Below, in pieces: positions 8,021 through 45,305 of a stretch of DNA of 64,000 nt (within the stretch, counting starts at the first letter, position 1; the number at the start of each line of letters is the position of its first letter). The DNA comes from Porphyra umbilicalis (lineage: Eukaryota; Rhodophyta; Bangiophyceae; Bangiales; Bangiaceae). The notes under the pieces were generated by a model. The model was not told the origin of the DNA, ran no database searches, and saw nothing but the letters and a program-made list of their open reading frames with translations. The DNA is taken from positions 62,001 to 126,000 of the forward strand of contig KV918854.1 in NCBI GenBank assembly GCA_002049455.2. Direction: 5' to 3'. Made by a program: the position numbers and the translations under genes.

Positions 8021-8035
8021 ACACGCACAGAAGTG

Positions 8036-14128: not shown

Positions 14129-16676
14129 AGGGGTTGGCCGGTTCCCGCACGCGGCTGCGGTCTAGTGTGGCTCGTGTGAGACGGTGGTCGGGCGTGCGCG
14201 AACACCACGTAGTGTGTAGCACAGTGCGGCGGCCCAGGTCGTGCTTGTCGCCGCGGCCATGTCGGACTGCTTTCACCCCCATCCCTCCCGGAGTACAGCA
14301 GCTGCCTAGCCGCTTCACATCACGAGCCCTCTCGTTGGAGCCCCGCTCCTCCCAGCACCGCCATCCCCTCATGTGAGCGAACAGGTGGGGCCATCGCGCG
14401 CGGCCACACCCACTTGCCTTCCTCGCTCGACGTTAGCCCCTGCGGCCGAGGGCCGCTGTGGTGACCGAAGCCCTGCCCTACCAGAAAAGAGGACGGGATA
14501 TCCCGGGGTTTCTGACCCTGAATCCCGGGTTGCCCGGGATTGCAGTGGAAACCGAGATGCGACAGCACTGCGGGTCGGTATTTCATCGCCATGATAGTTC
14601 TAAATTTGCCGGCTTGTAAATCTATAACGAGTAGACACGAAAGAAATTTTTGAGATAGCCATGCGAAGCTCAGGTGAGATGGCCCCAGCATGATTCGCAG
14701 GGTCATGTGCACAATAGTCCCGTGGATCGGCGAATATCCTATACTTCAGATTGCCTGATTCTCGAGTTACCTCTGTGATTGGGTAGTTCAGCACTACAGT
14801 TTCTGGACTCGTCCTACGGATCATCTTCGGGACTGATTCTAGGATCGTTCCAGAAGGAGTATCATCCTGACCCACAGATCATCTTGGGGACTCTCGTTCA
14901 AAAAAAATGTGAGGACTTGTTCAACCGATAGTCTATCTGCCTCTTCCGCCTACACAATGTCTGCCTATTCCGCCAACAGCGTGAATAAAAAATTTCAGAC
15001 GGTCTCTCCTTGCATACCAACGCACAACGCTGAGGTTGACTCATCACTTGTGGAATCTGACTCTCATTGCTGGTTTTTCCGAGAGAGTTTTTTCTTCTGT
15101 GACAGGCCTTGAACCTGGGGATTGTGAGATACAGACGTGACATGTTTGGACGATCGGGGACGAGATTGCCACTGAGCTGCGAACGAATTTATTGGCTGTC
15201 GGCGAGACCCAATCATTTATAAATGGGGACTGGGTACGTCTAGGACTTGGTGATTCTCTCGAAGTGCGAGCCCACGCCTGTTCACCCAGATCTCATCCCC
15301 TCTGCGCCGGGCAACAGCGTATCGGTCGCATGAGTGCCAACTCACATTGAGGCTCCCTCTGCACACGTTACGTTGACAAGGGGCGACGCCCGATGAGCAG
15401 GTCTTGCTCTCTCATCGGTTTCGGCAGACCCTCCTTACGACGTCACTCAAAGTAATCCAGGCTATCATCTACGATCGAGTCCGTGAGGTTGGAATCTAGA
15501 TCAATCTTGCGCACTCGTTTACTCAATCCATGAGGACGATCCCCAGGATGATCGTACTCCGACTTCAGGACAGTCCTGAGCACGATCCGCAGAACGATCA
15601 GAACCAGCGAATCGGAATGATCCTTCATGAGGATTCGGCAGGAACTTCGCCGGGCAATTGCTGAATCTGCAGTTGCTGGTGTGAGGATGATTCCCACTGA
15701 ATATCGGTGCCAACAGTCTTCGAGCACTTCTTAACTCCACTGCGGACTCTGTCTCAAAGATCAACGAAAAGTGGGCATAATTTGATCCCAGCATCATTGC
15801 TCGACATTTCTGCGAACCGTCGGTGGGCGTGTTCGAATCTGGCAGTTCTCAGTTTTAAGGAATCGGCGACAAAACACTGTGAGTTAGGGCGGAGGCCATC
15901 GCAGATGCAAACCTGAAACTGGTCTGTGCGGAGCGACACGGGATTTCCAGCCGCACCCCCGCCAACGGTGCGGTGAGAACGATTGCATTAAGAGAGCGAC
16001 TGCCTGGGCCAGAAGCCGCCAAGACGGCATGCGTCGTGCTCCCTGATCTTGCCTGACAATGTCCGCCCCCCTTCCGACCCGTGTTACGCCCGCCTCCGGA
16101 AAAATAGAACAGTACGGTTCCGCCTCTCACAGGTCTGCGTGCATGCCCGCTGGGCGCTTGCATGACGGTGTTCAGTTCAACTAGCCCTTCGATAGTATCT
16201 GCATTACGCCCATCCCCGTGACTCGCACATGCAGGGAGCCACAGGGGCCCACTCCAGCTCATCCCCTCTTCGTTGCGCTTTCCTCAGTGGGAGCACAGTC
16301 CACCTACCTTTCGGGAGCAGGAGAGTATCGTGGCAATAGCGGCTGGTAGCAAATACCGCAGCACGGTCCTCTCGCAGGTCTTGAAGCGGATAACTTTACA
16401 GTCGGGCACTACTGAGTCATCAAATAGCCTGTTTTGTTGCATCCTTCCAGGAAAGTGTGTGCTTTGTGTAGTGGGAGAGAGTGCTATGGTGGTTTTCCCA
16501 ATTTTGGCCACGCCGCTGGAGGCGTAGTTTGCCCAAAGTATTATGGACCACTTAGTCTCGATTGCGCTCTGAATTGACCTCGATCTTCGCCACAGCCAAT
16601 AGTAATGGAGGAGTGCGGGATCATGACATCACAGCCGATGTTTTCAATGTGCGCATCCCGTTCCGACATGTTGCCT
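14129..16676. other. Region without a supportable gene
   Basis: From about 14580 to 16670 base composition drops toward average and frames are short. A perfect hairpin lies at 14521-14541 (AATCCCGGG, loop TTG, complement). Between 14780 and 15640 many short direct and inverted blocks around GATC recur (GGATCATC, GGATCGTTC and similar), probably remains of an old repeat. No coding motif was found. Confidence 0.45.
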
Positions 16677-17136
16677 GCGCAGCGGGCCCAGAACCGTCGT
16701 CAAAAGCACGTCTGTTTTTGCCTGTTTTGAGCCTCTTGGAGGCCCGTGTTCCTGTTTGAAGAAACAGAATTCCTGTGCAAAAAACAGATCGACCCCCCTT
16801 GACAGGCTCTCAGAGGCCATGCCATGCGAGGTCCTTGCATATTTGTGTTTGCGAGAACAGGAATCGTTCCTCACTCCGCACATTGCGCCTGCTAGCAGGG
16901 CCATAGATGCTTCTCCGTCTCTCTCTCTTTCTGGAAGGGGAAAGTATATACATCTTATGCTGTGTCTCTCTTTTTACTAGTGGAGATGCATCTATCCCGG
17001 CGAACAGATGATTTTGGCGCCTTTTCTGGAAAAAACCAGCCTTGACAGAGCCCCAGGGCGGTTTGCAGATAATCTGTTCGTCCGAAAACACGCAAAAGCA
17101 GACGTGCTCTTGACGACGGTTATGGGCCTGCTGCGC
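16677..17136. mobile_element. Foldback element with long imperfect inverted repeats
   Basis: The first bases (GCGCAGC at 16677, then GGGCCCAGAACCGTCGTCAA) return as a reverse complement at the far end, finishing at 17136. Matching continues inward through AGCACGTCTG and a TTTTGC..TGTTTT block, and a second matching pair (ATAGATGC near 16903 and its complement GCATCTAT near 16987) lies toward the centre. The total is about 460 bp with no transposase, so it would be non-autonomous. Arms differ by substitutions and small gaps, suggesting age. A target duplication is not evident. Confidence 0.65.
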
Positions 17137-17462
17137 TGCACGCCTGTTCCCGTCGCAGCCGACGGAGCCCCGTGCCTGTCTCCGTCGCAACCGACTGAGC
17201 CCCGCGCCTGTTTCCGTTGCAGCCAACCGAGTCCCGCGCCTGTTACAGACAGGCCGCCACGCGAGGATACATACAGTGCGACGGCCCTTCCAGCGCCGAC
17301 TCACGAGACTAATTCCCCAACCCGCCGTCAGTGCCGCAAACCGGGGGCCGTGGTGTGCCGCGGTGATCCGAGCGCGGAGCACGGCAGGGTGACGACGGTC
17401 ACCGCGGCGACCGTGTATCGTGGGGGTCGTCACCACGACGATGGCGACGACGGCGGCGGCAG

Positions 17463-17740
17463 GTGCGACGGCGGTCGCGGTGCGACGGCGGCCGGTGCCG
17501 ACGGCAGTCGCGGTGCGACGGCGGCCGGTGCCGACGGCAGTCGCGGTGCGACGGCGGCCGGTGCGGACGGCGGTCGCGGTGCGACGGCGTTCGCGGTGCG
17601 ACAGCGACCGGCGCCGACGGCAGTCGCGGTGCGACGGCGGGACGTGGCGAAGGTGGCAGGTGTGGACGGCGGCCGGTGCCGACGACGGTCGCGGTGCGAC
17701 GGCGGCACGTGGCGACGGCAGCAGGTGCGAACGACGTTGA
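17463..17740 (+). repeat. GC-rich minisatellite, 33-bp basic unit
   Basis: Repeats of GGTGCGACGGCGG followed by CCGGTGC and a CGACGGCAGTCGC-type block recur first at exactly 33 bp and then in shorter variants. The array ends 20 bases before the ATG of the Cys/His protein. Because 33 is a multiple of three the same frame is open through it, but the translation (Arg/Cys/Gly repeats) is not like the downstream protein, so I treat it as untranslated. Confidence 0.6.
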
Positions 17741-17759
17741 CGGTGGGACGTCGGTCGTC

Positions 17760-18878
17760 ATGACGAGGTGCAGCATTTGCCAGTTTGTCAGCACCGCGGG
17801 CGGGCCGACGCACAACGCTCGCACGTGCCCTCTCAGGCAGACGCAGTGTCGGCGCTCGCTGCATGAAGGGCACCCCTTCCATGAGCCTGGTCAATGCGTC
17901 AGTGCAACGTGTGTTCACAAGCATAAATGTAACACCTGTGGCTTGTTTGGCCATCTCTACGGCACGCAGGCGCTCATTGTGGAGCGGTGGAGGCTTAACA
18001 AGAAGGGTTTCCTCGTGCGGAAGCCGACCAAGCGGCCCCTCTGCAAGGACGACTTTGTGTGCGCTCTCATGACTGACGCGTCTATCCAGAGCATGGTTGA
18101 CAACTCCGTCAGCGTCTCCACGGCGGCAGCGCAGGACGCGCACACGCGGCGGGCGGCGACGTCGCGCCTGCGAGGAAACACACACTTCGAGCAGCTGGAC
18201 ATCGACCAGACGGTCAATGTCATGGAGGGGCTGAACAGCGACGCCGCTGACCTCCGAAAGGAAAACGAGACGCAGATCAAGACGCTCTACAAGAATCCCC
18301 ACCACGGCGCCGTGGCGGCCAACCGCCTGGCCGCTTCGGCAGCCGAGCGTAGCCTTGACGAGGACACGCCGTCTCCTTCCGACAGTGAGCACGGTGCCCA
18401 CATGCTGAGCACGTCATCTGGTACCGAAGCGGCCGCGGCAGCTGCCGGCGCCAGGCGCAGCCGTGGCCGGGGGCGCACACCCCGGGGCTCTGGCAACAGA
18501 GGGACGGGGCGTAGGGGCAGCGGCAGCGGTGGCGGCGGCGGCGGCGGCGGCAGCGACAGCGGCGGTGGCTGTGTCGTCGGCGATCGCAGCGGCAGCGGCG
18601 GCAGCGCAAAGAAGAAGATGGAGCTGAAATCTACGCGGGCGCGTTACGCGGGGCGGCAGAGCCGGACGGACCGCTACGCGGCGGCCGTGGCGAAAGGGCA
18701 GAGGGCGTCGCCTTCAAAGAGAGGTCCCACAGGCAAGAGAAAGGGTGCGGCCCGAAAGGGGTCGATGGCGGCGGCAACAATTGATGTAGAAGATATTGAC
18801 GACAATAACGGCTCAGCGGCAGTGCACGATGGGTGGCCTGCGGGGACGAGAGCGCGGTTTAAAACCCGCCTGCTCTAG
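17760..18878 (+). CDS. Cys/His-cluster protein, family not recognised
   Basis: The ATG at 17760 is chosen because it directly precedes the Cys-rich domain and follows the minisatellite. Residues 4-22 form a zinc-knuckle-like CSIC...THNARTC. It is followed by a second cluster with C, C, C-x-H-x3-C, CNTCGLFGH spacing to about residue 63, then a conserved segment with RWRLNKKG and FVCALMTD. Residues 120-180 look helical (FEQLDIDQTVNVMEG). The C-terminal third is basic and Gly/Ser/Arg-rich with a long glycine/serine run, as in nucleic-acid-binding tails. The same Cys/His arrangement occurs in the gene split at 25678-26813. It could be a host gene or a transposon-encoded gag-like or accessory protein. 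The frame ends at TAG 18876-18878 but remains open beyond it for 187 codons. Confidence 0.7.
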   Translation: MTRCSICQFVSTAGGPTHNARTCPLRQTQCRRSLHEGHPFHEPGQCVSATCVHKHKCNTCGLFGHLYGTQALIVERWRLNKKGFLVRKPTKRPLCKDDFVCALMTDASIQSMVDNSVSVSTAAAQDAHTRRAATSRLRGNTHFEQLDIDQTVNVMEGLNSDAADLRKENETQIKTLYKNPHHGAVAANRLAASAAERSLDEDTPSPSDSEHGAHMLSTSSGTEAAAAAAGARRSRGRGRTPRGSGNRGTGRRGSGSGGGGGGGGSDSGGGCVVGDRSGSGGSAKKKMELKSTRARYAGRQSRTDRYAAAVAKGQRASPSKRGPTGKRKGAARKGSMAAATIDVEDIDDNNGSAAVHDGWPAGTRARFKTRLL

Positions 18879-19442
18879 TTTTTCTCGCCGCGCTTCGGTG
18901 GAAGCCTCCCCGCGCGCATTGCCCACGCCGTCGTTGTCCAGCTTTATCAGTGCCCCGTCGAAGACGTTGACGTTGAGATGGCAGGGGTGGTCGTCAAGGG
19001 GGCGTCCGACTCGCAGTTGCGTGGCATCATGCTAAGCTCTGGCACGTTGTCCGCGGCGCAGGTTGCGGAGTGGCTGTGCTGCGCCATGACCTCCGCACTC
19101 CGCTTCTTGACGCTGCCAAGCATGGCAATGGCGCTTGAGCGCGTTGTTAACGAGGCGGCCGCGGAAGCTGCGAACGCTTTTGGCATTGGGGTTGCTGCAG
19201 CAGCCGCTCGGGCGGCCGCCGGAACTGTCGCCTGTGCTGCGCAACGGGGCTGTTTCCCACGCCCTGCAACAGCAGCAGATGCTGCCACCGTTCCGCCCGT
19301 GCGGCCCGGGGCCGCCGTCGTGCCGACCATGACAGCTGTGTCCCCCGCGGCTGCGGGTTCGACGCCGGCGTCTTCTGGCATCCCCCAAGCCGCGGCCACA
19401 ACTAAGGCGGCCACGGTCGAGGCCCGTGAGCGATCGTGTTGA
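18879..19442 (+). CDS. In-frame continuation after the TAG of the Cys/His protein
   Basis: The frame of the preceding gene stays open after the TAG for 187 codons to a TGA at 19440-19442. The translation is protein-like, with VVVQLYQCPVEDVDVEM, then a helical stretch including SAAQVAEWLCCAMTSALRFL, then an Ala-rich C-terminus. That is better than expected by chance from non-coding DNA. Three readings are possible: a nonsense mutation of a Gln or Trp codon truncated a longer gene, the TAG is read through, or this is a separate gene starting at an internal ATG (18978, 154 residues). I cannot choose from sequence alone. No family is recognised. Confidence 0.5.
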   Translation, partial: FFSPRFGGSLPARIAHAVVVQLYQCPVEDVDVEMAGVVVKGASDSQLRGIMLSSGTLSAAQVAEWLCCAMTSALRFLTLPSMAMALERVVNEAAAEAANAFGIGVAAAAARAAAGTVACAAQRGCFPRPATAADAATVPPVRPGAAVVPTMTAVSPAAAGSTPASSGIPQAAATTKAATVEARERSC

Positions 19443-21913
19443 ACCACTGGTGACAAGGCGCTCGTGGTGAGGTGCGGCAGGAGATGGAAATCCCAGTTGA
19501 TAGACACATAGAGGCGGGGGTGGGCCCCAATTGGAAGGTGCCAGACGGATCTCGGGGAATAGCCCCGAGGGACGGACATCGGCAGACAAGAAACCTGCTC
19601 GCTCCAACACTTCACTGCCTCAGGCTAGTTCTCTTTTTCTTCATGTCGGTCGTGCATCGTGGTGAGGGCTCCAACCGCCCTTCTTTTACTCCACTCGACG
19701 ATTTCTGAACACATACGGCGCCCCCCCTTCCATCGCCCAATACAGAAGCGTCGTGACTCCTGGGCTTGCCTCTTCCACCGCACCCATGGCCATTTTGGCC
19801 GCCACACCCCCTGCTACGCCCCCGCCCGCCCACCGCCACCATCAGCACTGCGCCAATCGTCACTGCTGGCGGCTGGGATGGCGCAATCTGGGGCACACAC
19901 GTTGGCCTGAACGCCGCCTTTTTCGCACGGGGGCATCTGGCCCTCGCACCAAGTCGATGTGCGACTTGGCCGCGAACGGGCGTGGCTGTGTTCTGCGGAG
20001 GGGCGACCGAAAAACGGTCCCCCCTGCAGTGTCGCGGGCTGCCAAAGGATGACCCAGGAACGACGGCACCAGCAGGACTCCGGTACCGTGCAAGCGGCCA
20101 GTAGTTTCAGAGGTCATATGAAGCAATACTGGTATTTCGGGCATCAAAATTGAGCAACAACAAAGATCTGTTGACTGTCTATCAATGGGAGGGGCAGCAA
20201 TCGCTGGTGCCTCCAATCGCCCCCAATGCGTGCCAGACTCAGCCCTTCCTTTCTCTCTGTCTTCCCGGCGGCTTTTCGTGTGTTGGCCAGGATCGTACAC
20301 AAGACTGGTATCCCTTCAAAGGTTGCCCCCTAGGGACACCTGCTGCCCCCCAGGGGCGTCCACAGCCATCCGAATGGAAGAGATCCCACATGGCCTGCAT
20401 CTTTGTCGCCCCGTCGCCGTGGGGTCGCACTCGACTCAGTACACTCTCTCAGTTGCCCGTTTCTCCACAGGCAAGGTCCGTGGCTACGGGCCTCACATCT
20501 TCAGTCCACCACCCCAGTGGTAACACGGAGACATTGGACACCGGGAGCGCCATTCGGCGATGTTGTGGCGTTCACTCTGTTTTCTCACCTCGGCCGTGCG
20601 CGCGCGGTGCCGGTACGATGCTGCAACCACTCTGTTCTCGTGTCGCTCCAATCATTGTAACTGCGTTATCGCCTGCAGTACCACGGGAACTTTGTTCGCA
20701 AGGGCGTTGCTGGCGACTTGGACACATCGCGTCAACCGGGTGCCCTCCGCTCGCCCAACGGCGCCGTTGCGAACGTCTCTCCCGTCGGCGTCGGCTTCAC
20801 AGCCGTCGGCGACGGTCCCGCCGCTGTTGACGCCGCGGCCAGTGGCGGTGCAGTCGGCGCAGTCTAGTGCATCCCCACACCCTCCATTGCCTCCGCCGCC
20901 GCCGACGCCACCACCGTCGCTGCCAGCGGCGGTGCCGTCGGCGCAGCCTAGAGCGTCGCCACCATCGCCAACGGAATTTCCCCCGCCCCGCCGCGATCGC
21001 CGCCGTGGCCACCGCCTCCGCAGCCGCCCCCACCACCGGCGCCGAGCGTCGGTGCAGTCGTCACAGCGTGGCGCGTCGCCACCACAACCACGGCCATCGC
21101 CATCACCTCCGCCGCCGCGGTCACCACCACCGCCTCTGCCGCCGCCCCCACCACCGGTGCCGAGCGTCGGTGCAGTCGTCACAGCGTGGCGCGTCGCCAC
21201 CACAACCACGGCCATCGCCATCACCTCCGCCGCCGCGGTCACCACCACCGCCTCTGCCGCCGCCCCCACCACCGGTGCCGAGCGTCGGTGCAGTCGTCAC
21301 AGCGTGACGTGTCGCCACCACAACTACCGCCATCGCCATCCCCTACGCCGCCGCGGCCGCCGCCGCCGACGCCGCCGCCAGCGCTGGTGCCGAGCGGTGG
21401 TGCCTTCGGCGCAGCCGCGCGCCCCGGTCCTTATGAACCCGTTTACGCCCACACCTCCGCCCACACCTCCGTCGCTGCCACCGCCGTCGCCGCCGCCGCC
21501 GCCGCCGCCGCCAGCGCCGGTGCCGTCGACGCAGTAGACCGCGTCGCCGCCCTCTGCACTACTAGCGGCCGGGCCGCGTCCGCAGCGGCGCTCTCTGCTA
21601 CCGCCTGCTGCCGGACATCCGGACCGTGACATTCCTGTGATTTCTCTGATCACTCCACCCGCGTCGCCCAAGGCTGCCGGCGTTGCACTCACTCGGCAAC
21701 TCTCTCCAAGTCGTCCGTTACTCGCGTCGAACGAGTTGGCATCCCCGCGCCAACCTGCTTCCGCTCTGTCGCGCCTAACTCTTCGGGAACCCCGTTCCTC
21801 CCGCCATCGCGCTCGCCGTCTGCCTACTACCCCTATTTCCCATATTCCACGGGGGTGGCGTTTTGCCCCCTCGAGGACCCCCCCTCCGGGATTCTCCCCC
21901 GGGGAGGTGGAAG
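19443..21913. other. Region without a supportable gene, apart from a minisatellite
   Basis: 19443-20800 has only short, biased frames. 20835-21540 is the minisatellite listed separately. 21541-21913 includes open sequence leading into the PHD-like gene but no separate start or motif that I can support. Confidence 0.4.
20835..21540. repeat. Minisatellite with 118-bp core unit
   Basis: Units beginning GCCGAGCGTCGGTGCAGTCG start at 21041, 21159 and 21277, exactly 118 bp apart. A fourth, diverged start is at 21389, and related GGTGCAGTCGGCGCAG blocks appear upstream from 20835. Because 118 is not a multiple of three, the unit changes frame at each copy, so the overlapping long frames are by-products of the GC-rich, stop-poor repeat rather than genes. 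Confidence 0.85.
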
Positions 21914-22861
21914 ATGGGCTACCCCGTCCGCCCCGCATTGTCCGGGGATTCACCGAGTTCCCTTCGTCAGTTGCGACGAGAGAGAAAGCTCGGCGGGACA
22001 GCGCATGGTGGTATCGCTTGGTGGCAGCGGACAGGCTTACGCAGGACAGGGAGAAGACAGCCGAAGGGGCAGCTGCGACCGAGCCGTACTCGGGGAAGGG
22101 GAAGGGCCCCGCCGGCAGCGGCTCTGCGAGTGGCTGAGCCGCGGCGGCGACGGAGCCCTTCAAGGGGGGAGTCTCGTGGAGTCACCGAACGTGCGGCATC
22201 CCCGTCAGTTGGCCGGAATACGGCGCGGACGAAGCCAGTCGTGGAGCAGGCCGAGCCCGTGTGCGCCTTCTGTCCGAAGGTCAACCGTACTGGCGGGACT
22301 CTGCCGTCGCCCCTGATCGGCCCATTCACGTTCCGGCATGGACAGAGCCTCTTTGTGCACCACATCTGCTCCATGTGGGCGCCCGAAGTCTACCACGACC
22401 CCGAGACGGACACCTTGCGCAACGTGGTCGCAGCGTATCATTGCAGTCGGGGCTTGACGTGCTCGGTGTGTATCACCAACGGCGCGACGGTGGGCTACTA
22501 CGTGGCCGAGTGCCGGCAAGCGTGCCCCTACTGCTGTTTGTACGGCCACCCTCCTCCCTCAAAGTTGCACCCAGAGGACAACGGACCATGTGTCAGGCAC
22601 GAAGAGCACTACGCGGCCTTTTGCCTGGCGCACGCGGCAAGGGCAAACGACGAAGCGTACGTGCGGCGCATGACCGATGACGCGGCTTTGCCAACGCTTC
22701 TGTCGGAACGCGCGGCAGCGATGCATGCCGCACTGGAGGATGAGCCTACCCAGGGCATGGACTGCCCCAACTGTGCAGTGAATGGTGTCCGGCGCAACAA
22801 AACGGAGACTATCTTCCGTCGGTTGTGGGGAGTATCTTCCTTCGAGGTCGACACGACATGA
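21914..22861 (+). CDS. Extended-PHD-like zinc-finger protein
   Basis: Likely a chromatin-associated factor or a transposon-encoded relative. From the first in-frame ATG (21914) the product is 315 residues. The first 110 are basic and disordered. Residues about 116-243 match an extended PHD layout: CAFC, then a PF...G..FVHHICSMWAPEVYHD block, CSVCITNGATVGYY, CPYCCLYGH, CVRHEEH and FCLAHA. The HHxCxxWxPE and CxxCxxxGA features are typical of ePHD modules. The spacing near CPYCC is unusual, so a variant finger is possible. A last Cys pair (CPNC) lies near residue 291. The frame ends in TGA at 22859-22861 but coding-like sequence continues downstream. Its natural partner, such as a methyltransferase or bromodomain, is not seen. 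Confidence 0.7.
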   Translation: MGYPVRPALSGDSPSSLRQLRRERKLGGTAHGGIAWWQRTGLRRTGRRQPKGQLRPSRTRGRGRAPPAAALRVAEPRRRRSPSRGESRGVTERAASPSVGRNTARTKPVVEQAEPVCAFCPKVNRTGGTLPSPLIGPFTFRHGQSLFVHHICSMWAPEVYHDPETDTLRNVVAAYHCSRGLTCSVCITNGATVGYYVAECRQACPYCCLYGHPPPSKLHPEDNGPCVRHEEHYAAFCLAHAARANDEAYVRRMTDDAALPTLLSERAAAMHAALEDEPTQGMDCPNCAVNGVRRNKTETIFRRLWGVSSFEVDTT

Positions 22862-23557
22862 GTTACCGTCGCTGAGCACCCTTACCGACGGGTCGTTCGC
22901 AGCGGCAAGCGAGTTGCGACCCGAGATTATCCTCGACAAGTCCCTCGGTGCGCTGTTCCGGTCGCGCTGCGCGCAGGATGGGCGGGCGCAGGAGGGGCGG
23001 GCGCTGCACGTGGCGGTGCCGCTGGTATCCAGACGTCGCTGGCGAATGTCGGTGAGGCGATGGCGCCCGACGACGGGACTGCCAGTGCCGAGGCAGCCCT
23101 CAGTGCAGCAGATGCAGCCGGTGAGCTAACGGACGGGGGGCGGCAGCGGGGAGAAGCCGAGGTCGCGGCTCCTCGTCTATCCCCCGTTTACCTCGTACGA
23201 AACGTCAGACGAGTACAGGGCGTCGGACGAGGTGCCTTCCGGAGGTCTCTTGCTGCAGTACCTGGTTACTTTTTCCGCACGACTGTGGTCACCCGTCGGC
23301 TGTTTTTACCGGTGGGCATGGGCGGTGCCGAGTCGCGGAGGCCGCTCGGTCTTGGGGTACGGCCTACTAATGGCGGTGGCAGCGTGGGGTCGGCCGGTCG
23401 CGTTGGTCGAACAGCCGCCAGTGGCGGTACCGGCGAGGGGTCAGCCGGCAACGGTGGGGAGTCGGTGAGCCGCTCTTTTGTTGGGTGGCCGCCACCGCGG
23501 CCGCTGCCAAGTCCCAAAGCCGACGAGGAAGCATCTGGGAATGACAAGCAGGAATAG
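22862..23557 (+). pseudogene. Probable lost C-terminus of the PHD-like protein
   Basis: The frame of the gene above stays open after its TGA all the way to 23557, ending in a hydrophilic SPKADEEASGNDKQE. In a neighbouring frame, 22845-23030 reads as better protein (LSTLTDGSFAAASELRPEII, then LGALFRSRCAQ). From about 23030 the original frame is again better (SLANVGEAM, then ASAEAALSAADAAGELTD). Two compensating indels about 170 bp apart, or a short misread stretch, would explain this. An intron is not excluded, but I see no convincing GT/AG pair. Confidence 0.4.
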
Positions 23558-23649
23558 ACAGTTTCTTTTTGTCACAAGCGACAAAAAGCGCCCACGTGCG
23601 CGCCCCACCTCCACCGCCCACGTCGCCTCCACACCAGCCAGCAGTTCTG

Positions 23650-23935
23650 CCGCCTGCTCGGACGCTGCGTGACTAGGACCCCACTCTCCACCACCTCCCG
23701 TGCTCCCCGCTTTCGGCGGCACACCCCATCATGACGCAAACCCCGGCGCACCGATCGACCCAGGTCGGCATTCGCCTCCTTCCTCAGCCCTGCCGCCGTC
23801 TGGGACGGTGCGTGGGTAGGACCCCACTTTCCACCACCTCCCGTGATCCCCGCTCCCCGCGACACACACCATCATGACGCAAACCCCTGCGCACCGACCG
23901 CCCCAGGCCGGCATTTGCCTCCTCTCCGTTCATCA
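23650..23935. repeat. Tandem duplication, 143-bp unit, two copies
   Basis: Two adjacent copies share GGACCCCAC, TCCACCACCTCCCGTG, CATCATGACGCAAACCCC and GGCATTYGCCTCCT in the same order, offset by 143 bp. 143 is not a multiple of three. The copies have diverged by substitutions and small gaps. Confidence 0.7.
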
Positions 23936-23992
23936 CTGTCGCGGCCGGCCGCCGCGCGCACCGCCACGAGCGCGCGTGCGTCCGGCGCACTG

Positions 23993-24490
23993 ATGCCCCG
24001 CGCCCTATCGCCAATGGCCGACGTGGAAGCGGAGGCGAGGGCGTTGCTCTTGGCGGCCGGCGACGACGCGGCGGCGGCGACGCTGCTCGGCGAGGGCAGC
24101 ACCAGGAAGAGGCATGGCGGCGGCGGCGGCGGCGGCGGCGAAGGTGGTGGCGGTGGCGGTGGTGGTGACGACGGTGGCGGCAGCAGCGACGGTGTGGCGG
24201 CGGCGGCGGCGCGACCGCCACCCGCACGCGGGAGGCCGTGGCACCTTTGGGGACCCCCCGTCGACGCCGCAGACGGTAGAGCCCTTGTTGCGGAGGCCAT
24301 CCTGCCCGCGGCTGCTCTATCCGTCACACCTCCTGCCACAAACGCGGTTGGCACCATCATTGTGCCATTGCAACGTACACTGCGCCGCCGCCGCCGACGT
24401 CGGCGCTGCAGCCGACGCCGCCGCCGCCGCCGATGCCACCGCCGCAGCCGCTGCCGCCGCCGCAGCCGCCGCCACCGCCGCCGCCGCTGA
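23993..24490 (+). CDS. Hypothetical protein with Gly and Arg tracts
   Basis: From the ATG at 23993 the product is 165 residues. A second ATG lies eight codons on, before ADVEAEARALLLAAGDDAAA, a plausible amphipathic helix. A glycine tract follows (residues 40-60), then an Ala/Pro-rich middle and an almost pure Arg/Cys/Ser tail encoded by CGC/CGA triplets. The last third is probably microsatellite read-through, so the true C-terminus is doubtful. No family is recognised. Confidence 0.3.
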   Translation: MPRALSPMADVEAEARALLLAAGDDAAAATLLGEGSTRKRHGGGGGGGGEGGGGGGGGDDGGGSSDGVAAAAARPPPARGRPWHLWGPPVDAADGRALVAEAILPAAALSVTPPATNAVGTIIVPLQRTLRRRRRRRRCSRRRRRRRCHRRSRCRRRSRRHRRRR

Positions 24491-25677
24491 TGGGCTCAAA
24501 AGCCTCTCCCAAAGACCTCGTCTGCGCCACGCAGGGCGGGCTGCGCTGGACTCGTAGCAGCGGCGCTGCAACGCCGCCTCCGACGCCTTGCCGGTGGCAA
24601 TTTGTGTGGAGGAAGCGGTGCAGAAGACGCCAGAGCGGGACAACCTGTCAGCGTGGAACACAAAACGGTGTGGGGAGCAGCCAGCGCCTTGGTAGGGGGT
24701 GAGGGGAAGCCGCGGGAAAGAGATGGGGGGGAAGGCACGAATGCGCTGCGGGGCGCGCGCAGGGGAGGGCGGGAAAGTAGTGGGGGGAGGTTGTAGCCGA
24801 GCCGCGTGCTGCGCAGTGGGAGCAAACGATGAGCTCCCTGGAAACGAACAGGACGGACGGGAACGCCACTTTCCGTCAAGGCCGACCAGGCCACGATGAC
24901 AGTGATGATGTGGCCAATTGGACTCCGTCGTTCACGAGAGATGTCGAACAACCGTCATCTTCGCAAAAAAAAAGGAAGCCCCCAGGGCGATCAATTCATT
25001 TCCACGACAGAGGGTGGGACTTCGGACGAGAGTCTTCACTTTTGCATTTGCACCGGAAGAGTCACTATCGACAGCCATCTCCCTGGGCGCGTCTGGGAGG
25101 CCTTGTGGAACGTTGGCACCCTTCAGCTTCAATATACGACACTGAACGCACTTTCAGCAGCCCAGAGAGCTCTGAACCATGGCAGCTCCAACCTTTCGTC
25201 AAACTGTGAGCAAAATGCATGCGAGTTGGCGGATCCCTGGCCGATCTTCACCGGCAAGCACCCTCCAGAGACGGTCCAGTCTCGGGACGGCGAAGAAAGG
25301 ACACCGTCCCGCGACCACCCAATGGGTCCATCGGAGTGGTGTCGCCTTCCTCGGTGTCCGGCGCCAGGCACTGGCGAGTATTGGTCATTCTCGTCGCTGT
25401 CGCCCTTTCGTCGTCATTCTCCCAACCGCCATCGCAGCGCACCCCTCCCAACATCTCATCTCATCGGCGAGAACCCGTGTCGTGTTTCTGGTACGAGAGC
25501 AGTTGTGGCTCCTTTCTGGCGAGAGAGCATTTGTCACATTGGACAGACGCCGTACGGTACGACTCGTGTTATGAGCAGTGTTCTGACCCACTCGCTCTAT
25601 CGAAATGTTCCTCGACATGGCCCAACGCTTTCAAATGCATGTCATCTGCTGACCTTCACACAGGGGCACTAAGAGTC
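24491..25677. other. Region without a supportable gene
   Basis: Composition falls to average after about 24820. Overlapping frames (for example plus 24896-25672) give no motif, and several registers are open together. The segment leads into the disrupted Cys/His gene at 25678, so part may be its promoter. Confidence 0.4.
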
Positions 25678-26813
25678 ATGCTGTGCGTCCTGTGCAGGGG
25701 TTGTCAGGATATGCATTTTGAGGCGAAATAGGATACGGATACACGCCGATGCGGTGTATCTGATTACGGATAAATCGCTTAACTATAATCCGGATGCGCA
25801 TATCTGCCTCCGAAACCGGATTATTCCGTAGATTATATCCGTATCTGAGTACGATTATCGTATCCGATTATATTCCTACAAGTCCGTCCGGCCGCACAAT
25901 TATGGCCAGGAAAAGACGCCATTCAGGCACTTGTTGAGTGCTAAATGGACGTTAAGTACGACTTGATATTCACATTTGATGTGTGCGCCCCAACGGGCAC
26001 GGTCCAGGCAGTTCCCCGCCGTTTTTGTAAACGGTCGTCAGATAGACCGTTCTGAAACTCGTGTCACACTTTGCTGATATCGCAAGCGGGCCGAGTCGCG
26101 TGCTTGTACGGGTTCTTCCGGGTCGGGCGGGATAGCCACTTGTCGCTGCAACATGCTTGCACATGAATCTCCCGATGATCGGACTGGGAAAAGAGAGGTG
26201 GACCGCGTTGTACCGCAATTCTGTCGGCCCAAGAAGTTTAATAATCTTATATATCCCTGTATCCTGCCTCTCATATCTTGAATACGGATCTGATATAATC
26301 TTGCAATTTTTGTCGGACAGGATAGATATATCCTCTTCTCTTTTTCTCATAATACATTTAGAATATGCGTCCCCGGCGCGTATCCGAAGTGGATACGGAT
26401 AAAATGCATGGATAGATTCCTCAGGGATATATCCATGACAACCCCTGGTCCTGTGCAGGTTCCAGAGCGCCGCCTGGGAACGTGGCCACAGTGCTCGTTC
26501 CTGCCCGTTGCGAGAGCTGGAGTGCCGCCACACGCTCTCCGAGGACAGCCCCTTTGTTCTCCCCGGGCGCTGCCTCAATGAGCAGTGCGGTCATCTCCAG
26601 CCCTGCTCCGTGTGCGGTCTGATTGGCCATTCGCGTTTCACCGTCAAGTTGGACACCGCGCGATGGGAGCTTTCAGCTGGCGGGCGGGCCATCCACCGCC
26701 TGCACTCCCCCAGGGCGCTCACTCGTCAGGAGTTTGTGTGCCAGTTGGCGAGCGAGCGTCAAGTTCAGATACTCGTCGCGTCTCCCCATGCATTGGCTCT
26801 GGCTCAGACGTGA
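25678..26813 (+). pseudogene. Cys/His-cluster gene split by a hAT-like insertion
   Basis: The first codons (ATG at 25678, reading MLCVLC) match the start of the Cys/His protein at 17760. After codon 6 an inserted element begins; beyond it the frame resumes at 26456 and runs to TGA at 26811-26813. The resumed part has HSARSCPLRELECRHTL, then PGRC, C-x-H, CSVCGLIGH, RWELSAGG and FVCQLAS. This follows the order and spacing of the 17760 protein (NARTCPLRQTQCRRSL, CNTCGLFGH, RWRLNKKG, FVCALM). Removing the insertion and one target duplication restores a continuous frame of about 125 residues, shorter than the relative because its long C-terminal half is missing. No independent function is known. 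Confidence 0.75.
25695..26447. mobile_element. Non-autonomous hAT-like transposon, 753 bp
   Basis: Ends are CAGGGGTTGTCA at 25695 and its reverse complement finishing at 26447; similarity continues inward as GGATAT after one mismatch. The direct flanks are a perfect 8-bp duplication, GTCCTGTG, at 25687-25694 and 26448-26455. An 8-bp duplication and CAGGG-type termini are typical of the hAT superfamily. The interior has no transposase and is AT-rich. It carries many hairpin-forming variants of GGATACGGAT, TCCGTATC and GTATCC, for example around 25735-25765. It would need a transposase supplied from elsewhere. Confidence 0.85.
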
Positions 26814-27282
26814 CCTGTTTTCTCGACACTCAAGTTTTTGCGTCTTGCGGGAGGACGCGTGCTTCTCACTGTGTTGCGCGTTGTGATGGGACTGCACAGC
26901 AGTAAAGGCACAGGCGTAGCCTGAACTTCACGAAAGCTGCTCGGAGAGACCGAACCGCCGCAGCACGGTGGGCATCAAAACTCGCCTTAACAGTGACGGG
27001 CGAATAGGATGGCTCCGAGCGAATCAAGAGCAGTGAAGACAGAAACTGGTCAGGCGTTTTCTCCGCCTCGTCCGATGTTTCGATAACCGTTGATCCAGAA
27101 ACCATCGCAGGCTCTCTCCCCGCCAGCATTTGCTTGGTCTTGGACGCGTGGCTCCCCTGATTTCACCACCTCGTCTCATTCCTGCTCCACGCACTCTCCT
27201 CTCGCTTTGCACCATTCACCATCCACACTACAAACCCTTCTATCTGCTACTACTCGTAGCACTGGCCTTCGCCTCCTGCACA

Positions 27283-27838
27283 ATGTGTGCGAGTCGCTCC
27301 GGCTCCCGCAACGCTGGCAAGGCAGCCGAGACCCCGCACTCTCTTCCCGCGACGGCGGAACACGGCCGGCCGGCGCGGGCGACGGAGCAGGCTGCGCCTG
27401 CGCGCATCGGCCAGTTTGTTCGGCAGGCAGGCTCGCTAGGACTGCGTGTGCAGCGCATGACGATTGCGCCTGCACCCGTCCCGCACCGCGGTCGCACCCC
27501 CCAGGAGCCAGGGTCCACCCCCAACTTTATTGACGAGAGCAGCGCCGGTCCGTGCATTGTCTTGGTGGAGCAACCCACCGCGAGCACCGCCAGCTTCACC
27601 GGCCGGCCTTTTTAACGAGCCGGTGATGCCGCCCAGCGAATCGAAGGCGGAGACGCAGGTTCCTCGTCGGGCTCGTGAGGAGGACAACGGGCATCGCGGC
27701 CGTCTTGGCGATAGTGCCGGCCGCGGTACCGGCGGCGCTACTGCTACTGTGTCGGGTCCGAGAATGGCGGCTGCATCATCGGCTGGTGACGGCAAGGGAG
27801 GCGTGTCGGGTGCTGCGGGTACAAGCAGCAACGGCTAG
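27283..27838 (+). CDS. Hypothetical protein, one frame shift inside
   Basis: ATG 27283 opens a frame to TAA at 27613-27615 (110 residues, Ala/Arg/Pro-rich). The +1 frame continues at exactly that point to TAG at 27838, giving a hydrophilic tail with MPPSESKAETQ and a Gly/Ser-rich end. The junction is CCT TTT TAA C: skipping one T at the stop joins the two parts, with 74 further codons. This could be a single-base indel in the T-run, or a programmed +1 shift at a stop codon. The in-frame sequence before the ATG has a hydrophobic stretch (FYLLLLVALAFASC), but no upstream in-frame ATG. No family is recognised. Confidence 0.3.
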
Positions 27839-29640
27839 GGTGCCATCTTGTGGGACCGCTGCGCACGTTTTCGCTGCATCATTACGTGGGGGACTCGGGG
27901 GGTGCGTTTCTCAGAACGTGAGGGGGGCGTGGGTGCGTGTTGTGTCTTCGTGCTACTCTGTGCTTCGAAGTGATGTCTTTTTTCATACCATAGTACGCGT
28001 GCGGCGTCCCCGTGCTGCGCCCGCGCGACGGGCGGGCGTCACACGCCGCCCACGCGCAGCGCCGCCCGTCACGTGTCGGTCGCGCCCGTAGGCCTGACGC
28101 CGAACGGCGGCGCGCTCGGTCGAGGACGGGTGCGGGTGGGCGTTTGAGAGCCAAATCTTTGAGGCGCACCGTCGTCCGAGGGCCCTCGCCAGACCTCTAT
28201 GGTCATCGCAATGGGAACGCGACAACTTCCGCAACGTAGACACGATCCCCATGCGCGCGAGAAAAAGGAAGAAAAAGACCTGCAACCTGACTACCCTAGT
28301 CTTTGCGTAGCTCGCAGCATGTGCTCTCATCACCTCCCCCCCGCTTCGTCGAACCTCATATAACCCGGCTCTCCCTGTCACTCTCGGCCATTTGTACACC
28401 TCGCTTGACGCAACGTTGAGACGGACGAAGTGAGGGAGGTCGTCTCCGGCGGCGTGCTGCACGCCGTCGCTCGTCGCCTCGTGCCGCCGCCGTCGCCGGG
28501 CGGCGGCGGGCACTGTTGGGGGGGCGGCGCCGCGCCGCGCTGGGCGGCCGCCGCCACGACCCCCGCTCCGGGCCCCGCATGCCCCAACCAACCCAGACGG
28601 TGGGAGCGGCGGGTGGGCTGGCGGCGGGACCGCGGGTCGACGACCCGCATCCGGTGGGTCGATGCCCGACTGGCGACAACAGGTGGGGCAGGGCGGACAC
28701 TTTCCAGCGCGAGGGTTAGGGGAGGCGCAGAAAACCGGCGCAACGGCAAGGGGGGGGCGGTGGGCGTGGGGCGGAGGAACTGTGGGCCGCGTCTCACAGT
28801 CGACGCGCGGTCACTGTCACGCCACGTCTTTCCGCCGCGCAGTGCTCTCACGCTGGCGCTGGCTTGGCGCTCACCCGCCCCTCCAGCGTTGCCGCCGTAT
28901 CTGGCGCGGTCGTGGACCAAGTAGACGGCCGCCGCAGATTGCGGGACGACGACGATGATCTCGTGGCGGACAGCCGTGTTCTCAATCTACACATACGAGA
29001 AGCGACGGCTGTTTGGGACACAGAGAAAAGAGGAAAATATAGCGTGAGTTATATGTTTAGCCGGGCATGAGCACACAGGCTGCTTTTCACCGCTAAAAAG
29101 GGGACAATGTCATGGGACAGCGCTGCTGCAATGGCCACGACGTCGACCACTGCTTCATTTACCAAAGACAAGATCGTGGGAGACACGTGGCGATGCAGGA
29201 GATCAACGTACAAGAATAGACTACTGAAGCACAATGCGCGAAAGATGGTGATGGAAGCACACGTACAGGGTGAATGCGTCGGGAGACCATCCGAACAGGA
29301 GAGGACGATAACCCAAAGATGGGACGGCGTTGGAGCCGTCGCGTCCACACGGGGACGGCGACATACCGACCGGACAAGGACGGCCTCGTGACGAGCGGAC
29401 GAGTGCAGCAAACGACGCGGGCATGAGGACGGCGTCACGACGGGGGCTACCTGTGGCCTCCCGACCCACCGGCCAAGCACAGTGACAGGTGATCGCGAGG
29501 GCAGCAACCGGGACGACCGGCGCCAAAAGTGAGAGCGCGTGGACATGCAGCAAGGAGATGTTGCAGACGTTTCGGCAGCCAAGTCGTGAGATATGGGATC
29601 AGAATGATACTTTGGACCGAAAAGGCCCTGACGTCTCCAA
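27839..29640. other. Region without a supportable gene
   Basis: Overlapping frames on both strands at 28378-28924 are Gly/Arg/Pro-rich and lack motifs; I cannot say which, if either, is real. 28930-29640 is closer to average composition with short frames only. Confidence 0.4.
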
Positions 29641-29649
29641 CTGCTGTCT

Positions 29650-30780
29650 CGTGACGGCGGTGACGGCGGCGCCCGCAACGCCGACCGCCAGTGTGTGTCG
29701 GACACCGTGGCCTCCGCCTCTGCACTGGCGGCGATGAGGCAAAGGCGACGGCGGCGCCCGCGGCGTCCCTCGCTGCTCTTCCGCGGACACGGCGGCTACG
29801 GTATCGGTAATTGCGGCGGCAGTGAGGGCGCCCGCGACTTTGAGCGCTGCCCGGACGCCGGAAAGGCGGCCGCGGACACGGTGGCATCTGCCTAGGTAGC
29901 GGCGGCGGCGACGGCGGCGCCCGCGACGGCCGCCGTCGCTCTGCCGAGGACACGGCAGCCACGGCCTCTGTACTGACGGCGATGAGGCGGAGGCGACGGC
30001 GGCGCGCGAGACGTCCGCCGCCGCTCTGCCATGGACATGGCGGCTACGACCTCTGCAATTGGGGCGGTAAGGCGGCGGCGACGGTGGTGACGGCGGCGCG
30101 AGCGGCGTCGGCCGCCGCTTTGCCACGAAGACGGCGGCCACGGCCTCTGCAATGGCAGCGGTGAGGCGGCATGGACGGTGGTGACGGCGGCGCTGGCGGC
30201 GTCGGCCGCCGTTTCGCCACGAACACGGCGGCAAATGCCTCTGCACTACTGGTGGGGAGGCGGCGTCGACGGTGGTGACGGCGGCGCTCGCGGCGTCGGC
30301 CGCCCCTTTGCAGCAAAGACGGCGGCCACCGCCTCTGCGCTGGCGGCGGTGACGTGGCAGCGACGGCAGTGACGGCAGCTTCTGGCGCCGCTCGGCGTCG
30401 GTCACGGTGGCTACCGCCTCGGTTGTGGCGTCTGTGACGGCGGTGGCGACTGCAATGGCGACGGCGGCACCCGCGGTGTCCGCCTCAACTCAGCCACGGA
30501 AAATGGCGGGTACCTCTTGGGTAATGTCGGCAATGGCGGCAGCTGTGACAGCGGCGTTGACGGCAGCGCCCGCGACAGTGACCGCCGCTCGGCCGCGAAC
30601 ACAGCGGCCACCGCCTCGGTTGTGATAACTGTGTTGTGTTGGCGGTAAGGCGCCGATGACGTCGGCCCTCGCGGCAGCACAATCGCTCGGCCGCGAACAC
30701 GGCGGCCGTCGCCTCGGTACTGGTGGCGGTGGCGGCGGCCCCCGCGGCATCGACCCCCGCTTGGCAGCTGCGTCGGCGCC
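29650..30780. repeat. Degenerate minisatellite of roughly 90-120 bp units
   Basis: The blocks GACGGCGGCG, CGGCCGCCGCT, ACACGGCGGCC and GCCTCTGCACTGGCGGC recur in fixed order across the whole interval with variable spacing. The best preserved neighbours (about 30050-30350) are close to 95 bp apart. Frames open through it are stop-poor by composition. Confidence 0.65.
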
Positions 30781-31241
30781 TCAGCCGCCGGAACTGGCAA
30801 GCGTGCGCGTGGTATCGGTTGTCCCTGGCGGCGGCGCAAAGAATTCTGACGCCAAGCCTGTTACGGCCACTGCCCGGCGGCGTTGTTCGCGGGTAAAGCG
30901 GTTCGCGCCATCGAGGTTGGCCGCAGCTGAGCGGCGGGGGTCGAGGGAGAACTCCCGGGCTGCCGCCGAAGCTCGCAACGGTTTGAGGAGGATGAGGGGA
31001 AGGCAGTCGTCACACTGTGTGGCGCTAGGATTCACAACGAACACTGGTGGCTGGGGCTGGTAACCACAGTCCGCACCGGAACAATTGCCTCTGTGAACAA
31101 TAATGGAAACTACTTTGTCAAGCACACCAACGCCACATGCAAACACACCCACACGCCAGAGTAAAATACGCTGGCTACTAGCTCAAGACGTGCAGCCAGA
31201 AACAGAATAGACATAGCATCAACAAAGAAAGAACCACCAAC
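30781..31241. other. Region without a supportable gene
   Basis: A short transition from the minisatellite to AT-richer sequence; the frames are short and have no motif. The last part precedes the stop codon of the mariner remnant and may be its 3' flank. Confidence 0.4.
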
Positions 31242-31739
31242 TCACGCAGGAGCCACACCCGTCAGGAGCCGGCTGATCTCGTGCGACACGCGGGGGAACT
31301 GGCCGGCCACCTGGGGAAAGGTGAGCATGCCGACGGCGGCAGCCATCGGGTGAAAGGCCTTGTCCAAGTACTGCCCTTCCTCGAACACGAGCGACCTCAC
31401 GTGCTCCTTGAGATCGGCGAAGACGCCCTCGATCGGCTGCAAGTTTGGAGAGTGCGGGGGCAGCCGCACATAGTGGATGCCAATCGCTTGCATATGCTGA
31501 TCCCACCAGTGGTCGTGGATGCTCGCGTTCTCGTACAGCACTACGCAGGCGTCCGGCTGCATCTCCCACGGCAGCCCCGGGATGTCCGTGTTCATGAGCG
31601 CGTGAAGACATTGAAGGAACAAGCGCCAGTCGTCCGACGTCTGCGCATTGCCGACTATGACGGCCTGCGACCACAGCACGCCGTGCGTCAGCGTCACCTT
31701 CATCATCGTGCTCGTCCGCTTCATCGTCCGCCTGTCCCG
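31242..31739 (-). pseudogene. Tc1/mariner-type transposase, C-terminal half
   Basis: The reading frame shows the end of a DDE_3-type endonuclease: WSQAVIVGNAQ, VVLYENASIHD, then LPPHSPNLQPIEGVFADLK and a tail to the stop at 31242. In the family the IH motif is preceded by a catalytic Asp (DNA/DNAxxH) and the last motif is NPIE. Here the Asp is Glu (YENASIH) and NPIE is QPIE, so activity is doubtful. The N-terminal half is missing: sequence identity to a transposase stops at 31739, exactly where the LTR of the copia element begins. The missing half is not found beyond the other LTR, so it was deleted or lies outside. Confidence 0.75.
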
Positions 31740-31990
31740 TGTTGAAACGCAGTGGACATAGGGGTTGTGGGACCACGGTGAAGTGTTTGAGTGGCTCAAG
31801 CTTGTGTGTGTGTGTGCGAACGTGCTTTGTTGGTTGTCCCAAGGTTCGCCCGCCTCTCCCAACCGAGAGCACCTTTCAAATAGTCCCCACCGGCCCAAGT
31901 GCTCCCCCCTCTCGCGCCCACACCGACGCCCACGCCCTCGCACCAAATCGGATCACTCACCAAATCAAAAGCCACTAGAGCAAAGCGAAG
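31740..31990 (-). repeat. 3' LTR of copia-1
   Basis: It starts TGTTGAAACGCAG and shares CACGGTGAAGTG, TTGAGTGGCT, TGCGAACGTGCTTTG and TTGGTTGTC with the right-hand copy, then diverges. The inner boundary is approximate. LTR pairs of an element are identical on insertion, so the visible divergence indicates age. Confidence 0.75.
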
Positions 31991-32159
31991 ATCAAATACA
32001 AAACATGCCAAGAGTAACGCCCCAAGATGACCCAACACGAATGTGTGCAACTTGACCACGTCTTGCAAATGTACCATGTGGGGTGTCATAAGGGTCACCG
32101 ACCATCATCCATCCGCGAACCGCCAGTGGGGTCGGCGACGACCATAACAGTCCAACACT

Positions 32160-33661: not shown

Positions 33662-33664
33662 TTA

Positions 33665-35235
33665 CATCTTGGGGGCTTGCTTCAGCCCATATAGCGCTGG
33701 GAGGAGACGACACACCTTGTCAGGATACGTCGGATCGACATAGCAGTCTGGCTGCTCCATGAAGACCTCCTCGTCAAGGTCGCCGTTGAGGAATGCCGTA
33801 TTGACGTCCATCTGGTGTAGCTCCCACCCGTTCGCCGCCGTCATCGCCAGGATGCATCGGATCGTTGTGAACTTGGCCACCGGCGCGAACGTCTCGTTGC
33901 AGTCGAGCCCCTTGATCTGCCGGTTCCCCATGAAACACAGGCGCGCCTTGGGCCGCGTTGTGTTGTTCCCGTTCTTGTCAACCGCGTTCTTGACCTTGTA
34001 CACCCACTTGCTCTTCACTACGCGTGGACTGGCCGAGCGATCCGTCAAGCGCCTAGTATTGTTCTTGCGGATGGCCTCCATCTCCTCATCCATGGCAATC
34101 TGCCACTTAGCCGATTCTTGCTCTTGAACGGCGCGCACGTACGCTGTGGGCGCCTCGTGAGCAACCAGGCTCACAGGGCGCCAGTACTCGACAGGGGGTC
34201 GCCGCGCTCTGCCGCTCCGACGCAGCGTGTCTTGAGAGCCGCCACTAACTTCATTGTCGTCCGCGGCCTTGTCAGATCCATCGTCTTGCTTGTCTTCCTT
34301 GTCGTCATTGTCAGCATCTACGTCTTTGCCGTCGCTTGCAGAGCGCAAACCCGTCTCGACTTCGACAACTTCGTCTCCGGGAAGTTCCTCCGCAACCTCT
34401 GCGACCTCGCTTACGTTCGTCTCGGCGAACACGACGCTTCGTGCCTTGACAACCTTGCCGTGGTCGAGGATGACCTCGTACGCCTTGCTGCCGTCTAGAT
34501 AGCCTAAGAAGACGCCCTTCGCCGTCTTGTCGCCAAACTTGCCATCGATGTGACTCTTGTGCAGCACCACCCAGCATGTCGACCCAAACACGTGCATGTG
34601 GCTTACGTTGGGCTTGTTCCCGAACCATAGCTCATGAGGGGTCTTGCCTACGAAAAGCGCACGGCTGGTGACGCGGTTCTTGATGTAGACCGCCGTCTTG
34701 ATGGCATCCGCCCAAAGATTCTGGTCGACGTCCTTGTGTCGCATCATGGTGCGAGCCATCTCCACGATAACCCGGTTGAGCCGCTTAGCAACCCCGTTCT
34801 GCTGCGGCGTGTCGGGCACGGTGGTCTGATGCGTCGTGCCGTTCTCATCGTGAAAGCCTTGAATGCGTTCGACACATACTCGCCGCAATTGTCGGAGCGT
34901 AGGATCTCGATCTTGGTTCCCGTGTGCAGCTGTGCCTTGGTCAGCCACTTCTTGTACTCAGAGCCCAGATCGCTCCTCTTCTGAAGGAAGACCACGTCTG
35001 TCCAGCGGGAGAAGTCGTCCGTGAAGATGCCAAAGAAGAGCGCACCGCCACGCGACGGCTCCGACATTGGCCCGCCCAGGTCCGAGTGCACAAACTGCAG
35101 GCGCTTGGTCACTAGACCTCCTCCGGCACTAGGCATAGGCATCACAGCCGCCTTCCCATACACGCACGGCTCGCAGACGTCATTGACCGCCATAGAAGAG
35201 CATTTGAGTCCATTAATGTCCTTGTTTTTGATCAT
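33665..35235 (-). pseudogene. copia-1 integrase and reverse transcriptase (start)
   Basis: The integrase starts with a Cys pair before KAAVMPMP and shows the first two catalytic aspartates in FVHSDLGGPM and LRSDNCGEYV. The third position, normally Glu in NGVAER, is Lys here (NGVAKRLNR), so the core is catalytically dead. A one-base frameshift lies between NAFKAF and HDENGTTHQT, near 34860. Reverse transcriptase begins with WQIAMDEEM, SKWVYKVK, FAPVAKFTTIR, MDVNTAFLNGDL and ends at YGLKQAPKM, before TAA 33662. Confidence 0.85.
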
Positions 35236-35238
35236 CCG

Positions 35239-45285: not shown

Positions 45286-45305
45286 CGTATTCGCTGCCCA
45301 AGAGG

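Follow-up and report, generated by a model that had tools for sequence, protein, structure and literature searches.

Two genes of the red alga Porphyra umbilicalis, here called A and B, encode proteins with the same ordered cluster of cysteines and histidines and lie in a 64,000-nucleotide stretch of contig KV918854.1 (C94:62001-126000 in an assembly of 83.8 Mb; the whole stretch is referred to as the window). This raises the question of what kind of genes they are and whether they stand alone or are carried by a larger mobile unit, as an initial annotation made from the window alone had suggested in calling them possibly transposon-borne. Comparison with other contigs of the same genome (C332, C68, C18, C250, C44, C3, C39 and C21) indicates that A and B are very probably accessory genes carried by a single giant transposon, a member of the IS630/Tc1-mariner superfamily.

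Ends, transposase and genome-wide company of the element

Similarity between the window and its relatives on C332 and C68 begins at a TA dinucleotide followed by a terminal inverted repeat (TIR) starting TGGTGGTTTTC (Table 1), and in both relatives continues for about 2.4 kb beyond the point at which it ends in the window, as far as a right-hand TIR that is an inverted copy of the left one (57-58 nt, 93-97% identity). In the six copies for which both ends were read (C332, C68, C18, C250, C44 and C3) the inverted repeats measure 54-61 nt at 84-98% identity, TA stands outside both TIRs in six of six, and the end-to-end length ranges from 15.1 to 19.6 kb, the longest being the C68 copy, which holds a nested element. 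The proposal that the genes are transposon-borne is borne out by these relatives, as their TIRs and TA enclose A and B together with a DDE transposase, and the common flanks by which the initial annotation would have recognised a transposon gene are present as some 15-20 kb of common DNA bounded by inverted repeats and TA. The copies on C44 and C3 share 99.64% identity across 13.8 kb and lie in unrelated flanks, the similarity stopping at the TIRs, consistent with recent transposition of that family.

The gene layout of the relatives comprises A, a gene with an extended PHD-type zinc domain (ePHD) and B on the plus strand, with the DDE transposase on the opposite strand near the right end. The transposase of C332, a strongly conserved minus-strand frame of 492 amino acids (aa), matches Pfam DDE_3 (44.2 bits, cut-off 28.6) and HTH_23 (27.7, cut-off 24.6) and the NCBIfam IS630 model NF033545 (104.6, cut-off 100). 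Its acidic triad D300-D397-E431, assigned by motif rather than by structural alignment, has 33 residues between the last two acids, the D-D-E/D triads of IS630/Tc1/mariner enzymes having roughly 30-40. By the features tested, namely transposase, triad, TA and TIRs, the unit is of the IS630/Tc1-mariner kind.

Across the genome, scoring of 150 of 234 candidates obtained with the A query left 143 A-family sites once seven second pieces had been dropped, and with the places found only by B and distant-A queries the A/B family amounts to at least 173 sites, in keeping with the multicopy family that had been anticipated. The transposase query, for which 114 of 387 candidates were scored, gave 115 rows and 114 sites. 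A transposase lay within 40 kb of 97 of the 143 A-family sites and within 20 kb of 78, with at most 9.7% of the genome covered, and within 40 kb of 123 of the larger set of 173; conversely, 91 of the 114 transposase sites had an A/B site within 40 kb. The nearest transposase was downstream of the A site in 90 of the 97 cases, on the opposite strand in 66 and on the same strand in 24. Sites found by B only were within 40 kb of an A site in 12 of 13 cases and of a transposase in all 13. As A and B of one element are both counted, these sites are not independent and binomial values would overstate significance, such that the effect size is what matters.

The third zinc gene appears to occur in two forms. 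The ePHD protein of C332 (a 782-aa frame) matches zf-HC5HC2H at 39.1 bits (cut-off 29.1), and the corresponding gene of the distant element C21 encodes a zf-met protein (32.4 bits, cut-off 21.2) in an element that also has a B gene and keeps the C-terminal domain of A (E 2e-9, from a single comparison). Genome-wide, 37 of 42 ePHD matches lie near an A-family site, 51 of 60 zf-met matches have an A-family site or a transposase within 40 kb (a range that takes in 15.4% of the genome), and only one of the 60 zf-met matches is near an ePHD; this near-exclusivity suggests that there are two branches with a common core of A, B and transposase. Among hand-paired elements ranked by identity to the window A and to the C332 transposase, the two rankings were correlated over all 70 elements (rho 0.74) and more closely in the 33 closer ones (rho 0.89).

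The Cys/His cluster and the A-B pair

Searched against its own genome, A recovered B on the same contig (E 2.7e-21, 37% identity). Cluster alignments were made of 24 A rows, of A with B rows, and jointly of 37 rows (24 A and 13 B), the last containing 12 Cys/His columns, at each of which between 30 and 37 rows have Cys or His. The order is C-x2-C, H-x4-C, C, C, C-x-[HC]-x3-C-x2-C-x4-H and a last Cys within FVC; the Cys preceding x-[HC] is absent in several distant B rows, and A retains the cluster in families 24-34% identical to the window A. Both genes are thus found where the initial annotation had placed them, with the same residue order, and on these alignments the shared signature is not the product of chance. 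Twelve conserved ligands would be consistent with three zinc sites. There was no entry in Pfam, NCBIfam or PDB covering the full cluster pattern, only scattered sub-threshold matches, which agrees with the earlier statement that the pattern matches no nameable family, and A and B apparently represent a zinc-protein family that is undescribed. The likeness to a zinc knuckle that had been seen in the first part of the cluster is a partial one. The first four ligands are ordered C-x2-C ... H-x4-C as in zf-CCHC (PF00098); however, the knuckle consensus is C-x2-C-x4-H-x4-C, whereas the cluster has a longer and variable C-to-H spacing (at least nine residues in the joint alignment) and eight extra conserved ligands, and all Pfam zinc-knuckle matches of A and B fall under the family cut-offs.

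A and B had also been taken for two dispersed copies of one gene, a description that the tree of the 37 rows replaces with that of an old pair inside a single element. Rows group by type, with two changes on the tree versus 10.9 in shuffles (none of 500 shuffles reached so small a number). Where an element carries both genes, as 11 do, A is never sister to the B of its own element, which indicates that the pair predates the split of the sampled families. A and B are, on this tree, old paralogues within one transposon. A single type change was obtained in 10% of 200 bootstrap trees, and B may have had one or two origins.

The 'long basic tail' by which A had been distinguished from B proved to be a stump. 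Residues 226-372 of the window A do contain 32 lysines and arginines against 10 aspartates and glutamates, but the protein is ended by a stop codon at 18876-18878, a position past which the A proteins of C332 (565 aa) and C68 (562 aa) continue into a conserved C-terminal domain. The frame that follows the stop in the window shares 90% identity with C332 across 110 residues, and the same domain is found in C21. The gene recorded as split B lies at the position given and is interrupted, by something that does not look like an intron: the interruption is a 753-bp insert of the miniature inverted-repeat transposable element (MITE) type, and the B genes of C332 and C68 are uninterrupted at that position. 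The intron reading was dropped because MITE ends and a target duplication mark the insert and because no GT..AG choice, examined by hand, restores the frame exactly. B measures 156 aa from its Met in C332 and 106-124 aa in six distant families. The counterpart in C332 of a possible extra frame after B (19853-20593) is 39% identical to C250 and 35% to C39.

Pairwise Nei-Gojobori estimates of the ratio of non-synonymous to synonymous substitution rates (dN/dS), for up to nine copies, show that all four genes (A, B, ePHD and transposase) are under purifying selection in the sampled copies. The ratio for A was 0.09-0.31 in all 36 pairs, and at dS above 0.3 the values were 0.09-0.20 for A, 0.20-0.52 for B, 0.13-0.29 for ePHD and 0.07-0.23 for the transposase.

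Decay of the window copy and its surroundings

The window copy is decayed, with a stop in A, a TGA within the ePHD frame, a MITE in B, and the start of the transposase gene and the right TIR (the right-hand part of about 2.4 kb) undetected in the remainder of the window. Its dN/dS values against C68 and C332, respectively, were 0.67 and 0.73 for the transposase, 0.58 and 0.61 for ePHD, 1.08 and 0.64 for B, and 0.29 and 0.29 for A, with C68 versus C332 giving 0.56 for the transposase, 0.57 for ePHD and 0.31 for A at dS near 0.01. Since dS in the window pairs is near 0.1 and the C68/C332 values are themselves high, these ratios suggest rather than show a relaxation of selection.

Table 1. Features of the window copy, in window coordinates
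Feature	Position	Strand	Basis or remark
Giant transposon of predicted IS630/Tc1-mariner type, left ~15.25 kb	16487..31739	.	Similarity to C332 and C68 from 16485 to 31739
Left TA (16485-16486) and TIR TGGTGGTTTTCCCAATTTTGGCC...	16485..16541	+	Matching end with preceding TA in C332, C68, C39 and C250
Gene A	17760..18878	+	ATG at 17760; 372 aa; N-terminal Cys/His cluster, middle region, G/S- and K/R-rich stretch
Cys/His cluster of A	17760..18062	+	Residues 1-101, from alignment columns; 12 ligands suggesting three zinc sites
Frame with A C-terminal domain, severed from A by stop	18879..19442	+	Sequence comparison
ePHD (zf-HC5HC2H) gene remnant	21863..22861	+	Pfam zf-HC5HC2H, 19.9 bits in the window copy
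Gene B start, through first target-site copy	25678..25694	+	Opens at ATG 25678
hAT-type MITE inside gene B	25695..26447	.	TIR CAGGGGTTGTCA, 12/12; 8-bp duplication GTCCTGTG at 25687-25694 and 26448-26455
Gene B remainder	26448..26813	+	Cys/His cluster as in A, without long tail; stop at 26811-26813
Possible extra frame after B	27130..27615	+	161 aa; weakly conserved
DDE transposase, C-terminal half	31245..31739	-	C94:93245-93760, 85% identity, query (C332 transposase) residues 184-356

Within the left end of the element, about 457 bp at 16679-17135 are missing from C68 and C332 and are bounded by 52-nt inverted repeats (16677-16728 and 17085-17136, 90% identity); judged by these ends, the segment is a second MITE-like insertion. 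Ahead of gene A, at 17142-17237, a 32-bp direct repeat stands in three units, the later ones 81-84% identical to the first; 12-mers taken from it are present three times in the C332 and C68 ends and absent from those of C18, C44 and C3. Past the truncated end, 31740-32157 and 34549-36829 match an insertion of about 2.5 kb inside the C68 relative; the region 31740-36829 thus holds another mobile element, which perhaps played a part in removing the right end.

Further repeats were observed elsewhere in the window. A repeat of about 405 bp, possibly a MITE, is present at 33152-33556 and 53973-54380 (79-89% to regions of C332, C250 and C39, 71-81% to a shorter match in C44). Several stretches of 42422-51026 match, in the same order and at 68-80%, the DNA to the left of the C250 element (C250m 1623-9367, minus), and by this comparison the region is another large dispersed repeat. 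The end of the window, 62412-64000, is 85-93% identical to a region of C39 (C39p 17364-19238), including tandem-like internal matches. The C18 element is itself enclosed by an outer pair of 86-nt inverted repeats (C18m 8629-8714 and 26079-26163), perhaps those of an element into which the C18 copy landed. In the assembly as a whole there were ten matches to the light-harvesting complex (LHC) domain, the best PDB matches of one such frame including 7y5e, a red-algal complex, and twelve phycobilisome-linker matches, four of them on contig C665, apparently the plastid genome within the assembly, where three of the four fall within one 893-aa frame that is presumably ApcE-like. Both sets of matches point to a red-algal host, and the assembly is similar in size and GC content to genomes of the Porphyra type.

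Role of the accessory genes and comparison with known systems

Several observations weigh against the placement of A and B in one transposon as working parts of it. There was no subterminal repeated motif found in common to all copies, and AlphaFold prediction for the two window sequences gave a predicted local distance difference test score (pLDDT) of 36.5 and a predicted template modelling score (pTM) of 0.19. Element ends have been read in close families only, such that in the distant families co-location and gene order are the grounds for regarding the units as elements, and no TIR was found in the 1.9 and 2.5 kb of flank examined around the C21 element, only low-complexity matches. At 46 of the 143 A-family sites there was no transposase match within 40 kb; as not all transposase candidates were scored, some transposases will have been missed, and solo A genes may be among these sites. 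In the 37 distant hand-paired elements the identities of A and transposase ran in opposite order (rho -0.71), possibly as a result of unequal rates or of module exchange between families, and strict co-inheritance of the two is therefore supported only for the closer families. The last two observations would also favour a reading in which a transposon picked up two zinc-protein genes of the host, A and B, as passive cargo with no part in movement, and genes of unknown role occur on giant elements elsewhere (PMC12477816). Cargo is nevertheless improbable, as the A-B pair stands beside a transposase even in those families in which A is 24-34% identical, a situation better explained by an old association than by repeated capture, as purifying selection on A between copies is strong, and as the identities of A and transposase track one another in the 33 closer elements. 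An integrated virus, or an element resembling a virophage, would suit a size of 15-20 kb with several genes but is hardly credible given the short TIRs with TA and the IS630-type enzyme; no capsid, polymerase or rve integrase family was seen among the selected frames scanned, and no relative of A was confirmed in two viral-contig scans made with the A alignments. Pattern matches in viral contigs and prokaryotic genomes likewise included no confirmed relative of A.

A possible explanation for the retention of A and B, offered tentatively and at rather less than even probability, is that both act as transposition co-factors. Each would fold around about three zinc ions to form a small module that binds nucleic acid or protein; A, which also has the basic stretch and the conserved C-terminal domain, would be a nuclear co-factor binding the transposon ends or the transposase, B, with the cluster alone, a partner or competitor of A, and the ePHD or zf-met protein a chromatin-facing third component, the three jointly helping the Tc1/mariner transposase to mobilise or de-silence an unusually long element. 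It is somewhat less likely that A and B are anti-silencing or chromatin-targeting factors rather than co-factors of the transposition reaction, comparable to VANC of the VANDAL elements. The third gene, whether ePHD or zf-met, encodes a type of zinc protein known among chromatin or nucleic-acid proteins, and A has its basic stretch, both in line with such a role, although the sequence evidence here does not separate binding for transposition from binding for expression. A rather unlikely proposal, compatible with either role, is that B is a short antagonist competing with A and limiting copy number: it retains the cluster and ends soon after, without tail or C-terminal domain, and evolves faster than A at dS above 0.3, but a partner that faces the host would be expected to evolve faster just as well.

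Tc1/mariner elements are usually compact and carry one gene. At a probability well short of even, a Tc1/mariner lineage may have passed the usual size limit by means of an obligatory machine, consisting of A and B, an exchangeable ePHD or zf-met protein and the DDE transposase, in elements of 15-20 kb and possibly longer; the machine would have kept working while the lineage diverged deeply, perhaps with exchange of modules between families. If this were true, a natural group of 15-20 kb Tc1/mariner elements with conserved helper genes would show how the size barrier is met, and an apparently undescribed zinc-protein family would gain a testable role. Counts of red-algal zinc-protein genes may include transposon genes.

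There was no matching description found in the literature of giant algal Tc1/mariner elements with accessory genes, although a Repbase entry is possible. The KDZ transposons are giant eukaryotic DNA transposons associated with CxC cysteine clusters. They resemble the present elements in being giant DNA transposons with Cys-rich modules, and KDZ transposases are present in the same genome; however, A and B have no Pfam CxC match, and KDZ matches used as a control (PF18758, 28 places in the genome, 19 above cut-off) were no closer to A-family sites than expected, with one of the 28 lying within 40 kb of a transposase and, at the same distance, one near the 143 A sites and three near the 173 A/B sites (12.5% expected for the latter). 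The association with KDZ suggested by the Cys clusters was rejected, as KDZ matches were not enriched near A-family elements.

Among algae, the giant En/Spm (CACTA) elements of Chondrus crispus, 16-20 kb long with 4-5 open reading frames (ORFs) (Kojima et al. 2013, as quoted in PMC6431247), are likewise from a red alga and comparable in size and number of frames, but differ in that the elements described here have an IS630/DDE_3 transposase, TA flanks and a TIR starting TGGTGGTTTTC. Membership of the En/Spm (CACTA) group failed on the TIR and on the IS630 type of the transposase. The Ectocarpus element TcMar-2_Ec32 (PMC12477816) is an algal Tc1/mariner element of 4.4 kb with an acquired and possibly zinc-binding EsV-1-7 domain fused to its transposase; in contrast, the zinc proteins here are encoded by separate genes, EsV-1-7 being set apart from them by description only.

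The closest comparison is with the TBE transposons of the ciliate Oxytricha, which are Tc1/mariner elements with three ORFs, one of them encoding a zinc-finger/kinase, that evolve under purifying selection (PMC4724952). They have in common with the present elements a Tc1/mariner-type DDE transposase, additional ORFs including a zinc finger, and purifying selection. They are unlike them in that the relatives described here reach 15-20 kb and encode two paralogous Cys/His proteins of unknown family with an ePHD or zf-met protein, and no kinase family was found among the selected frames scanned. It is these ciliate transposons that the Porphyra elements would appear to resemble most in how they work.

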